From a bacterium (GTDB lineage Bacteria; Chloroflexota; Anaerolineae; Caldilineales; Caldilineaceae), in NCBI GenBank assembly GCA_016124945.1, contig WGMT01000069.1:62001-126000 (forward strand): DNA of 64,000 nt, written 5' to 3'. The notes below the pieces were generated by a model. It ran no database searches. It was given only the letters and a program-made list of their open reading frames with translations, and had not been told where the DNA came from. The position numbers and the translations under genes are program-made. This document shows, piece after piece, positions 59,599 to 64,000 of the stretch; position 1 is the stretch's first letter, and each line of letters starts with the position of its first letter.

Positions 59599-60303
59599 AT
59601 GACACTCCAGCATAAACAGATTACCGTTGTGGCCATTGATGACCACGAGCTCATTCTTCAAGGCATTCGCTATCTTCTCGAAAAGAACGATGACATCAAA
59701 TTGGTGGCGGAAGGTTATGCCGGCAGTGATATCGTACCCCTTGTGGCGCGTCACCAACCGGAAGTACTCCTTCTTGATATCGGGATACCGGAAGAACGAA
59801 GCTATGGGGAACAGGCTGCCAGTCGGCATTCTGTCTTCGCGACCCTACATCTGTTGCAGACAGAATATCCTTATACGAGAACCATTATTGTCTCTCAATA
59901 TGGTACGCCACTGTTGGCAAAGGCGGCGCTATCGGCCGGTGTGAAAGGCTATCTCATCAAGGACGATGCCTTAACGAGTTATCTCGCAAACGCAATTCGC
60001 ACCGTGCATCGCGGGGGAATTTTCTTTTCTCGGTCACTGCAATCGCAGCTCATCCAAGCCCGGATCGGTGAACCCAACCCATTACAACCACGCCAGATTG
60101 AGATTTTGACAGCCTTTGTTCTGAAACCAAATGAGGATCGGGGCGTTATTGCCAAAACTCTGGGAATCTCTGTGAGCACATTGAATTATCATCTTGGGCG
60201 AATCTATGACGTCCTTAAGGTGAATGGTCTTGCCGCAGCCCTAGTGAAGGCAATGGAAATGGATCTGCTACCGGTACCTCCTCCTGACTTACCCTTGATG
60301 TAG
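59599..60303 (+). CDS. NarL/LuxR-family response regulator (ComA-like)
   Basis: The 234-residue protein starts at ATG 59599; the promoter at 59516-59543 rules out the upstream extension. The receiver domain has the acidic pair IDDHE (Asp14-15), the phospho-acceptor Asp60 in VLLLDIGIPEE, and Lys in GVKGYLIKDD. The C-terminal helix-turn-helix is LPQRQIEILTAF-like ... VIAKTLGISVSTLNYHLGRIYDVLKV, as in LuxR/NarL/ComA proteins. It lies 47 bases before the ComP-like kinase gene. In the comQXPA scheme it is ComA, a transcription factor activated by the kinase. Targets unknown. Confidence 0.9.
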   Translation: MTLQHKQITVVAIDDHELILQGIRYLLEKNDDIKLVAEGYAGSDIVPLVARHQPEVLLLDIGIPEERSYGEQAASRHSVFATLHLLQTEYPYTRTIIVSQYGTPLLAKAALSAGVKGYLIKDDALTSYLANAIRTVHRGGIFFSRSLQSQLIQARIGEPNPLQPRQIEILTAFVLKPNEDRGVIAKTLGISVSTLNYHLGRIYDVLKVNGLAAALVKAMEMDLLPVPPPDLPLM

Positions 60304-60350: not shown

Positions 60351-62765
60351 ATGAAAATGCACCACAATTTTTCAAACAAGAGTATCGCAAGGCATTTCTA
60401 CCTCGTCCGGATACCGGTACTTACCGGAGCTCTGTTTGTTATCCTCTTCTATACGTATGCCATCGTTGTTCTGGTGCCGAACTATCCCTTCGGCGCACGG
60501 TGGACACCTGACGGCCAAATGGAAGTGCTGCGACCGTATCAGGATACCCTGGCGGAAGCACTTCTTCGGCCAGGTGACATCATCTACCAGATTGATGGAA
60601 GGCCTGCCTTGCGCTCGCCCTGGCGTTTTCTATTTGAGTGGGATAACGATACACACATCTACGACATTCAGCGTGGTGATGAGCAACTACAGCTGGCGTT
60701 GCCTAACCAACCGATGGATTGGACGGAATACCGCTCACGAACAACCGCCGGTGCAATTGCTGTAGGCATATGGGGAATTGCAGCCGTCGTCTTGGCTGTT
60801 GCCCCGACGCACAATCGACAGGCATGGCGGCTGGGCCTGGTCAGTCTGGCGACGGCGGTAACACTGGCTGCGTCAGAAGGCGCACTTTACAACATTCCAA
60901 TTGCCTGGTTGATATCAGAACCGTTCTTACCACTTGTCTCTGTTGCTTTCGCGGCTCTTGCCCTGATGCCTTGTCCGCACAACCGACTGCGCTGGGCGAA
61001 AAGGTTGCTCCGAGTTGGTTACGTGGGAACGGGATTCCTGGCGCTGGCCCTCCTTTTTGAGATCCTTATACTGCGCCCACAAGGTCTTCGTTTGCCAGAT
61101 CTCGGCGGCTTGCCAATAGGAGACGTCGGCCTGCTTGTCACCGGTCTCGGATTGTTGCTCAATCCTGTACTGTTGATCTTCTCACTTTTTACGCTGGAAC
61201 CAGGACAAGCGCGCCGCAGCGTACAGACCCTCCTGCTATTCACCCTGTTGGCCATACTACCTCTCGTCCTCTTTACGATCTTGCCACGAGTTCTAACAGG
61301 GACACCCGTGCTAGCCTGGGAGCTTGGGATCAGCATGCTTCTACTGGTGCCGATTGGTTATGGCTTCGTCGTCTACCGTCGCCAATTCCTTGGGTTGGAT
61401 CTCATTGTATCTAGAACACTCGTAGCGCTACTGCTGATTCTACTGTTTACGACGTTATACGGCGCTACTTTCCTCAGTATAGCCCTGCAACAAACAGTGC
61501 AGACACTGCAACCCATGTCCGGCATCGTGGCAACCTGTATCGCAATGGGGGGTGTTGTGACGGCGGGGCAATTTATACAACGGCAAGTGCATTCTCTTGT
61601 CTTCGGACCCTCTGTGGCATACGCAGACAAGATTGCCGACTATACTGCATCTCTGGCGAGTGAACCTGAAGTGACATTCTTGGAGCGCACGTTTCGAGAA
61701 GTGATGGCATTGTTGGAGATTCAACGCGCCTTTCTGTGGATCGTCGGTGAGGATGAACCGATTCCGGTTTCCCGACAGGGGATGCACACCATTCCACAGA
61801 TAGAGATGAGTGACTTTGAAACGGTCATACAGCGTTCTACGCATCCACAGCAATCTGTGTTTGCAGAATATGAGTGGCTCGAGCTGGTGATTCCGCTACG
61901 ACATGAGGATCGCACCATCGGCGTGGTTTTCATTGGCAATCGGGTGGTTAGTGACTATTTCAATCAGCTTGAACTGGGTTTTCTCAAACAAATCAGCGCC
62001 TCAATTGCAGTGACGGTGATGAACATCGCGCTGTTTGAGGCATCACGCATGATGTCACGACTACTTCTCTATGTCAGGGAAGAGGAACGAGTACACTTCG
62101 CAACGCTACTGCACAATGGCCCGTTACAACGCCTTACACTGGTGTCCGGTGCATTGCACAGACTACAAGAGCATGCAGTCGGACCAGAGGTAAAAGCAAG
62201 AATTGAACAGATTCGCAACGATGTTCTGCTGATATCTTCACAACTCCGCACAGCGTGCACCGATTTACATTCCCCTGTAATTGATCTTGGCGTCGAATTG
62301 ACCGTACAGGAAGTTATCGAAAAAGCAGCGCAGCACCTTAAAGTACCTATCTCACTTGAGGTGACCGTGCCGCCGGATCTCTCAATCTCCAGCGCCGGTG
62401 TCACCGCGATTTATCACATCCTGACTGAGGCACTAAACAACATTCACCGGCATGCAGGCGCATCTGCTGTCACAGTTTCACTGGCACAGCCAGACGCAGA
62501 ACATCTACATCTCCTTATCCGGGACAACGGCCGTGGCTTTGTGATTACGCATACATCGTTATCGGAGTTGCTGCGTTCTCGTCGTTTTGGCCTGGTGGGC
62601 ATGCATGAATGGGCGCGTCTGGCCCACGGCGTGCTGGCAATACAATCTCGTCCCGGCGCTGGTACCACAATTGACCTGACTATCCCACTTTTTGCATCCC
62701 CAATTGCAGGATCACCACCATCATTCTCACACATTGCAGAAAGGAAAACCCTATGTCCAACGTAG
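60351..62765 (+). CDS. ComP-like sensor histidine kinase (PDZ, multi-TM, GAF, HisKA_3, HATPase)
   Basis: The 804-residue protein follows the ComP layout closely. Residues 22-42 are a membrane helix. Residues 50-120 form an extracytoplasmic PDZ-like domain, in which LLRPGDIIYQIDGRPA is close to the matching segment of B. subtilis ComP (LRQGDIILKINKEKP, from memory). About nine helices follow (130-430), ending in VLTGTPVLAWELGISMLLLVPIGYGFVVYRRQFLGLDLIVSRT, also ComP-like. Residues 440-570 are GAF-like. HisKA_3 has His588 in ATLLHNGPLQRL, and the HATPase domain has EALNNIHRHAGA, DNGRGF and RFGLVGMHEWA. The residue after His588 is Asn instead of the usual Asp/Glu. The ligand is inferred to be the product of the overlapping peptide gene. 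Confidence 0.9.
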   Translation: MKMHHNFSNKSIARHFYLVRIPVLTGALFVILFYTYAIVVLVPNYPFGARWTPDGQMEVLRPYQDTLAEALLRPGDIIYQIDGRPALRSPWRFLFEWDNDTHIYDIQRGDEQLQLALPNQPMDWTEYRSRTTAGAIAVGIWGIAAVVLAVAPTHNRQAWRLGLVSLATAVTLAASEGALYNIPIAWLISEPFLPLVSVAFAALALMPCPHNRLRWAKRLLRVGYVGTGFLALALLFEILILRPQGLRLPDLGGLPIGDVGLLVTGLGLLLNPVLLIFSLFTLEPGQARRSVQTLLLFTLLAILPLVLFTILPRVLTGTPVLAWELGISMLLLVPIGYGFVVYRRQFLGLDLIVSRTLVALLLILLFTTLYGATFLSIALQQTVQTLQPMSGIVATCIAMGGVVTAGQFIQRQVHSLVFGPSVAYADKIADYTASLASEPEVTFLERTFREVMALLEIQRAFLWIVGEDEPIPVSRQGMHTIPQIEMSDFETVIQRSTHPQQSVFAEYEWLELVIPLRHEDRTIGVVFIGNRVVSDYFNQLELGFLKQISASIAVTVMNIALFEASRMMSRLLLYVREEERVHFATLLHNGPLQRLTLVSGALHRLQEHAVGPEVKARIEQIRNDVLLISSQLRTACTDLHSPVIDLGVELTVQEVIEKAAQHLKVPISLEVTVPPDLSISSAGVTAIYHILTEALNNIHRHAGASAVTVSLAQPDAEHLHLLIRDNGRGFVITHTSLSELLRSRRFGLVGMHEWARLAHGVLAIQSRPGAGTTIDLTIPLFASPIAGSPPSFSHIAERKTLCPT

Positions 62766-62974
62766 CCACTCAGTTGATCAATGCACCGGCAGAAGCACTC
62801 ACCATCGCCAGTCAATTAAGTCTGAATCTTGATGAGCGTGCCACCTACCTGAGCCCCATTGATATCACGGTGGAAGGCTGGGTGGCTGTCACCACTGATT
62901 GTCTCGACCACTTGCGTGCCGCATTTCCTGGGTTTATGTGCTCCGATTCCGGTGGATGTGAACGACTCCGCTGA
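62753..62974 (+). CDS. 73-residue peptide, candidate ComX-like pheromone precursor
   Basis: The ATG at 62753 overlaps the kinase stop by 13 bases, and AAAGGA lies in the kinase end as binding site, so the two are translationally coupled. The product is small, with a leader-like N-terminus (SNVATQLINAPAEALTIASQL) that has an LIN..AEAL pattern weakly like the ComX leader (LINYFLNYPEALKKL, from memory). The C-terminal part is DHLRAAFPGFMCSDSGGCERLR. The only Trp is at residue 43, not near the C-terminus, but Cys50, Cys63 and Cys69 are. Size, position next to a ComP-like kinase and a ComQ-like enzyme, and coupling support a pheromone precursor. Identity is inferred from context; the sequence alone is not diagnostic. 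Confidence 0.7.
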   Translation: MSNVATQLINAPAEALTIASQLSLNLDERATYLSPIDITVEGWVAVTTDCLDHLRAAFPGFMCSDSGGCERLR

Positions 62975-63060: not shown

Positions 63061-64000
63061 ATGATCTCTGATGGAATACAACCAAGCATAGACAGTCTCT
63101 TCGTTCGGGTTTTTGAGTGGGTAGAAAATGAGTTGACGAAACTCACCGGCTGGTCCTGGCTCGGAGAACTTGTGGTATGGCGCCGTCACCGGCTTCATGA
63201 TACGTATGGCGTATACGGCATTACCCTGCCTATTTTGGCAACAACGCTGGTGGGTGGTTCAGACCGCAAGGCCATACCCTTAGCCGCAGCCTGGGTACTC
63301 TATGACCTGGCATCCGACATCTTCGATGATCTACAAGACAAAGATGAGAAACCACACCCCTGGTGCAACTGGCCACCGGATCGCGCCATGTTGGCCGGCC
63401 TCGGCTTGCTCTTTGCCGGCCAGCACTGCCTTGCTCAATTGGATGCACCAGCGGAAGTACTCAAAGAAATCCAACAGAGGTGGTCACAGACAGGGCTATT
63501 GGCCGCTCTGAATCAACACTCCACTGAACAAACAACCGCGGAACGCTATTTTGAAGAGATTACGGCAAAGTCCGGCATTATTTTTTCGTCCGTCATGTGG
63601 AGTGGAGGCCGTCTGGCCTCGTCTGAGACAGACAAGCTCTCCGCCTTAGAAGAATATGGATTGGCATTGGGTATCCTCATCCAGCTTTGCGACGATGGAC
63701 GGGATTGGGCGGTACCCAGTGAAAACAAGAAGTCGAATATCCAGTCAACGCTGTATCAACTGATAGCAATGGGGCACCCAAAGATGCCACGTATCCAGGA
63801 CATTCAGATTCGCGGCGCGCTGTATCCTGGCGCCGAAAAGGAGATGTTGAACGTCGTTTTCCCGTGGGTGGCGTACACTTTTGTGATTGAGATGATGAAA
63901 GTCTATGAAGAAAAGGCGATTTCTGCGCTGTCCCCCTTTACAAACGGACCGGTTGACCATCTAATCGACTATGCCAGGTATTTCCGCAGTACCGTGTCGG
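63061..64000 (+). CDS. ComQ-like class I isoprenyl transferase (3' end outside window)
   Basis: The ATG at 63061 has GGAG eight bases upstream. At least 313 residues are visible, close to full ComQ length (about 300), and the frame is still open at the right edge. The first Asp-rich motif is LASDIFDDLQDKDE (DDLQD at 89-93), close to B. subtilis ComQ DIMDDLEDED (from memory). The second is QLCDDGRDWAV (DDGRD at 211-215), which is better conserved here than in ComQ. AKSGIIFSSVMWSGGRLAS corresponds to the KxG region of ComQ. It is a member of the trans-isoprenyl diphosphate synthase fold. In this context it probably attaches an isoprenyl group to the peptide product, but a role in isoprenoid chain synthesis is not excluded. 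Confidence 0.85.
   Translation, partial: MISDGIQPSIDSLFVRVFEWVENELTKLTGWSWLGELVVWRRHRLHDTYGVYGITLPILATTLVGGSDRKAIPLAAAWVLYDLASDIFDDLQDKDEKPHPWCNWPPDRAMLAGLGLLFAGQHCLAQLDAPAEVLKEIQQRWSQTGLLAALNQHSTEQTTAERYFEEITAKSGIIFSSVMWSGGRLASSETDKLSALEEYGLALGILIQLCDDGRDWAVPSENKKSNIQSTLYQLIAMGHPKMPRIQDIQIRGALYPGAEKEMLNVVFPWVAYTFVIEMMKVYEEKAISALSPFTNGPVDHLIDYARYFRSTVS

Follow-up and report, generated by a model that had tools for sequence, protein, structure and literature searches.

A ComQXPA-like locus in Chloroflexota whose candidate signal precursor lacks the C-terminal tryptophan kept by most relatives

We analyzed a 64,000-nucleotide stretch of a Caldilineaceae genome (contig WGMT01000069.1, hereafter the window), the end of which carries consecutive genes for a response regulator, a sensor histidine kinase, a small peptide and a ComQ-like enzyme, followed by a DrrA-type ABC ATPase and two ABC-2 permeases (Table 1). 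The ABC ATPase and permease genes and then a cytochrome P450 gene lie past the window end; no P450 gene was seen in the examined stretch beside the corresponding locus of a same-genus genome, G001. The sensor kinase and LuxR-type regulator are adjacent on the same strand, as in ComQXPA of the Bacillus type. The kinase consists of a PDZ-like N-terminal stretch, hydrophobic segments with a transmembrane topology judged from sequence, a GAF domain, the H-box LLHNGPLQRL and HATPase_c, and both its H-box and its PDZ-like stretch can be aligned with those of 21 related kinases. The residue after the phospho-accepting histidine is an asparagine in place of the acidic residue (HN), versus HD in most relatives.

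Table 1. Features of the locus, in window numbering.
Feature	Position	Strand	Evidence or remark
Response regulator (ComA-like: receiver and LuxR-type HTH)	59599..60303	+	Pfam PF00072 E=4e-11; GerE PF00196 E=4e-4, below its cut-off
ComP-like membrane sensor histidine kinase	60351..62765	+	Pfam HATPase_c E=3e-11, GAF E=5e-6, PDZ_6 weak
Shine-Dalgarno sequence AAAGGA of the peptide gene	62740..62745	+	Sequence
ComX-like precursor peptide without C-terminal Trp	62753..62974	+	Shine-Dalgarno sequence; coding score; same site 5′ of comQ as the small genes of relatives; homologous to the peptides of G001 and L113
Trp43 codon	62879..62881	+	Opposite a mid-precursor His/Asn in relatives rather than their C-terminal Trp
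Cys63...Cys69 pair (CSDSGGC)	62939..62959	+	Matches C..DG.C of Trp-bearing L113; absent from L026, L062 and L063
Arg71 codon	62963..62965	+	Probably at or beside the L111/L113 Trp position (CAWAE versus CERLR); alignment refined by eye
ComQ-like trans-prenyltransferase	63061..64000, continuing to 64044	+	PF00348 E=4.5e-11; motifs; AlphaFold model; Ord1 match
Cytochrome P450	about 66998..68395 (L005 7998-9395)		Downstream of the ABC permeases

The peptide gene encodes 73 amino acids (MSNVATQLINAPAEALTIASQLSLNLDERATYLSPIDITVEGWVAVTTDCLDHLRAAFPGFMCSDSGGCERLR), with Trp43 as the sole tryptophan and cysteines at positions 50, 63 and 69, exactly as the initial annotation had described. Its start overlaps the 3′ end of the kinase gene by 13 nt, and the Shine-Dalgarno sequence lies 7 nt ahead of the ATG. 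The frame scores +0.028 log-odds per codon against −0.29 and −0.37 for the other forward frames, where the off-frame maximum among controls is −0.074 and in-frame genes score 0.141 ± 0.05. In the interval between the kinase and comQ this is the only plus-strand reading frame with a Shine-Dalgarno sequence, and no credible peptide with a C-terminal Trp was found in alternative frames at the locus. Frame 2, which ends in ...VLRFRWM*, was rejected since it has no Shine-Dalgarno sequence and no matching frame in relatives, as was stop read-through or frameshifting (a TGA followed by TGG in the window), for which relatives show nothing comparable. A search of the remainder of the genome, a 107-contig assembly with a contamination estimate of 9%, returned no second related precursor. 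The peptide matched no Pfam family at E≤10, and so not ComX (PF05952), and no NCBIfam model at E≤1, with no NHLP leader. Against a profile of its relatives it scored only E about 0.6, yet ranked first among about 315 control reading frames of the window.

Searching genomes with the enzyme recovered about 20 Chloroflexota loci that combine the enzyme with a PDZ-bearing kinase and a response regulator, and 11 Paenibacillus loci with comQ, a small gene and a kinase in succession; the viral contigs searched held no relatives. Nearly all of these loci have a small reading frame with a good Shine-Dalgarno sequence directly beside comQ, and the gene set, with such a small gene just 5′ of comQ, recurs in many Chloroflexota. 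With few exceptions, the encoded peptides finish with a Trp-containing core or carry it in several copies, examples being FPWG, GLWDRK, CAWAE and GPWGWQF repeats. Among Chloroflexota loci (L numbers) the ends are CDDGRSAWAD (L111), CDGKCAWAE (L113), LWTPPGPV (L084), CWFGSCSNV (L085), CWYGGGCSL (L112), GQWK (L114), GGWWW (L115), GRFWLS (L028), KYGWF (L029), FPWG (L086, with a match to the Os17 NHLP family at E=3e-11), GKWG (L089) and AEWG (L092), and the Paenibacillus peptides end in AVWG, AMWG, FKWH, GWM, YWL and similar sequences. Inspection of L091 and L067 revealed no clear peptide with a C-terminal Trp.

Several relatives depart from the one-enzyme, one-precursor layout. L082 and L110 each carry two different ComX-like genes in tandem ahead of a single comQ (minus strand; 5435 and 5157 in L082, 5417-5599 and 5178-5384 in L110), with ends GLWDRK and LLCWPRCDGA or LLCWPNCGGGTGS. 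One family's set carries multiple Trp cores in tandem, three to six or more per precursor; multi-core ComX-like precursors lie at L087 3590 (+), L093 1894 (−), L090 5184 (−) and L088 6369 (−), each upstream of a comQ-like gene and each built of a leader followed by 3–6 or more tandem GPNGPWGWQF-, GPNGPWDWQF- or EGPFPGWQGMELA-type units, and the L090 leader is weakly NHLP/Os17-like. At L083 3885-4826 (= L066) a ComQ-like gene of the same clade has no adjacent kinase or regulator, and its neighbors have no Pfam match. At L028 3270-4400 (contig C706 of genome G057) the comQ-adjacent ComP-like kinase gene is shortened to 120 aa and is followed by opposite-strand reading frames that read like a putative transposase.

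The window peptide departs from this pattern together with its closest relatives. The nearest loci with a readable peptide gene are L026, which is the G001 locus, L062 and L063; with the window they form a set in which no peptide (0/4) has a Trp within its last 12 residues, against 13/13 sister-locus peptides, and the L026, L062 and L063 peptides contain no Trp at all. The absence of a C-terminal Trp, first remarked for the window peptide, thus extends to its three nearest relatives. A fifth locus, in genome G030, groups with this branch by enzyme sequence, on a contig that stops before the peptide gene, and these five are the only comQ genes of the branch found in our family, order, class and phylum samples. 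In the enzyme tree, the window pairs with L026 (98/90) and L062 with L063 (97/90). Both pairs belong to a clade of 15 rows (96/96) with an internal branching order too unsettled to tell one loss of Trp from two. The short N-terminus of the G001 comQ gene (L026 4753-4900) is split over two frames, by sequencing error or real damage. The locus is a member of a small branch that has lost the C-terminal Trp kept by the rest of the family.

Despite strong divergence among the four known Trp-less peptides, shuffle tests connect them to Trp-bearing precursors. None of 500 shuffles aligned as well as the window peptide with that of L026 (z 3.7), L026 with L111 (z 4.9) or L062 with L063, and only 4/500 and 6/500 did so for the window with L113 (z 3.0) and L111, respectively; the window against L062 or L063 singly was not significant (38/500 and 35/500). 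Because the alignments are better than those of shuffled sequences, Trp-less and Trp-bearing precursors are homologous, and with the gene order and Shine-Dalgarno sequence this homology upholds the original reading of a ComX-type precursor beside a ComQ-type enzyme.

The initial annotation had proposed that either Trp43, within a pheromone cut from a middle segment, or a cysteine carries the modification, unless the peptide is not the substrate, and that alignment of orthologs would reveal which is invariant. We made this comparison, and none of them is. Only the window peptide has Trp43 and Cys50, with His or Asn as the counterpart of Trp43 in L026, L111 and L113. Cys63 stands opposite the Cys of LLC in L111 and L113 and Cys69 opposite the second Cys of L113, matches confined to Trp-bearing homologs; the last 20 residues of the L026, L062 and L063 peptides contain no Cys, and L062 and L063, beside intact enzymes, have neither Trp nor any Cys in the C-terminal half. 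On these alignments neither Trp43 nor any cysteine is a conserved acceptor. Of the polar or nucleophilic side chains tested over the last 20 residues, only Arg and Asp occur in all four Trp-less peptides. An Arg falls within the last 3 residues in 4/4 Trp-less against 2/13 Trp-bearing peptides, the latter two from near-identical genes; this pattern was spotted after the fact and is weak, a lead rather than a result.

An AlphaFold model of the enzyme (pLDDT 85) adopts the isoprenoid-synthase fold with TM about 0.7–0.8 to isoprenyl synthases and to Ord1, which is also its top sequence match in the PDB (9v4g-9v4j, E=2.6e-9). Its FARM (DDLQD) and SARM (DDGRD) are both canonical DDxxD motifs of the prenyl-diphosphate-synthase type, and Gln208 lies three residues before the first SARM aspartate, Asp211. 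This Gln also occurs widely among canonical prenyl synthases and hence is not diagnostic, and the L082, L110 and L084 enzymes do without it beside Trp peptides. Studies of PalQ and Ord1 implicate the equivalent Gln, together with the first SARM Asp, in recognizing indole or Trp (PMC10853753, PMC13290415). FARM, SARM and Gln208 are retained throughout the Trp-less branch, whose five enzymes share 53 invariant columns; W141, S85, S171 and K97 are among the positions fixed in these enzymes and rare in Trp-bearing ones. With its motifs kept, the window enzyme looks catalytically intact. Bacillus ComQ requires a SARM of the form NDxxx or GDxxx (PMC5331326); the window has DDGRD and its branch DDCxD, and the Paenibacillus enzymes have ND. 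We discarded this rule as a predictor of Trp use, as most Trp-bearing Chloroflexota loci have DDxxD too.

The explanation that best fits these observations, which we regard as about an even call, is that the 73-aa reading frame encodes the signal precursor of a quorum-sensing operon resembling ComQXPA, whose enzyme most likely prenylates a C-terminal residue other than Trp. By analogy with ComQXPA (PMC4008528), an N-terminal amphipathic stretch would act as the leader recognized by the enzyme, the C-terminal part would be modified by it, cleaved and exported, with the operon's own ABC exporter genes serving the circuit, and the exported peptide would be sensed by the adjacent kinase. Since the enzyme looks catalytically intact, it probably still prenylates the C-terminal segment on another residue, and the acceptor would have moved there, with Arg as the likeliest shared candidate. 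Across the Trp-less branch, the precursor and enzyme sequences are best read as an acceptor either relocated or lost. Prenylation at another residue has to contend with the fact that all characterized trans-IDS-like prenyltransferases act on Trp (PMC13290415) and that PalQ rejected other electron-rich residues (PMC10853753), as well as with the small number and strong divergence of the Trp-less peptides. A true switch of this ComQ-type branch from Trp to another residue, for which a near-C-terminal Arg is the sole common nucleophile besides Asp, is a rather improbable proposition. If true, it would provide the first trans-IDS-like peptide prenyltransferase with a non-Trp acceptor.

Loss of modification altogether is unlikely. 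Here the peptide would be exported unmodified, or the modification step would be in the course of being lost, the enzyme would be a leftover or a maker of free isoprenoid, and the kinase would sense the unprenylated peptide. Residues common to the four peptides include no obvious prenylation target, the two DDxxD motifs match those of canonical prenyl-diphosphate synthases, and the HN H-box of the window together with the frameshifted start of the G001 comQ hint at relaxation, making partial decay conceivable. However, HN kinases also occur at the Trp-bearing sister loci L085 and L112, so that HN alone is no sign of decay, and the intact, divergent and motif-conserved enzymes of the window, G030, L062 and L063 argue for maintained catalysis. 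The same missing common acceptor, along with the weak profile score against relatives, could mean that the reading frame is not the substrate and that the enzyme acts on another precursor or a free small molecule, an idea to which we assign low probability given the position, Shine-Dalgarno sequence, coding bias and pairwise homology of the gene and the failure to find another candidate reading frame at the locus or a related peptide elsewhere in the genome.

It is quite unlikely that Trp43 accepts the prenyl group, with a mature signal cut from the middle of the precursor or comprising a long C-terminal segment. Trp43 is the only Trp available in the window peptide, and the retained Gln208 and Asp211 match the Trp-recognition pair of Ord1 and PalQ (PMC13290415, PMC10853753). 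Against this, relatives carry their Trp near the C-terminus instead, L026, L111 and L113 have His or Asn at the homologous position, and the L026, L062 and L063 peptides offer no Trp. The retained Gln is not diagnostic. S-prenylation of Cys63 and/or Cys69 is very improbable: Trp-bearing L113 (CDGKCAWAE) has counterparts of both cysteines, and L085, L112, L082 and L110 also contain C..C pairs, but these relatives have a Trp beside the pair, which makes a disulfide loop the easier reading; the three nearest Trp-less peptides are Cys-free over their last 20 residues, and, according to PMC5331326, Cys isoprenylation had gone undetected in prokaryotes.

Compared with ComQXPA of Bacillus subtilis, the window locus likewise has its prenyltransferase, small precursor, sensor kinase and regulator genes side by side on one strand, shows gene overlap, and encodes a precursor whose length falls within the 52–73 aa range (PMC4008528); as far as anatomy shows it would constitute a working system of this type. 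It differs in the order A-P-X-Q, in its attached ABC exporter genes, in its phylum, in a SARM of DDGRD rather than NDxxx or GDxxx, and in a precursor with no Pfam ComX hit and no Trp within 5–10 residues of the C-terminus (Trp43 of 73). By strict criteria the window peptide is thus not a ComX, lacking a C-terminal Trp, a Pfam hit and a pseudo-SARM enzyme partner. A 2014 census placed ComQXPA-like loci in Firmicutes alone, with none outside (PMC4008528), and our literature search for ComQ in Chloroflexota returned nothing beyond a remark that Chloroflexi have the kinase-regulator pair (PMC8895600); the Chloroflexota loci described here extend beyond that census.

PalQ and PalX of Paenibacillus alvei (PMC10853753) offer a second parallel, with a trans-IDS-like enzyme, SARM aspartates, a Gln three residues earlier and a small leader-core precursor. 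PalX combines an NHLP leader with a C-terminal Trp; the window precursor has neither, and more distant Chloroflexota peptides such as that of L086 have both. Ord1, a free-tryptophan farnesyltransferase, has the same Gln/Asp spacing as the window enzyme, although its substrate is free Trp (PMC13290415) and the window enzyme is linked to a precursor. The closest systems are those of Chloroflexota themselves: L111/L113, L082/L110, L084, L085/L112 and L028/L029 encode homologs of the enzyme, kinase and regulator; L082/L110/L111/L113 share ABC exporter genes with the window locus, and precursor homology is best shown for L111/L113. Unlike the window, all of these loci keep a Trp ≤12 residues from the precursor C-terminus. 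Chloroflexota offer natural enzyme-precursor pairs with and without Trp, so the choice of acceptor by enzymes of this family can be put to a direct test.
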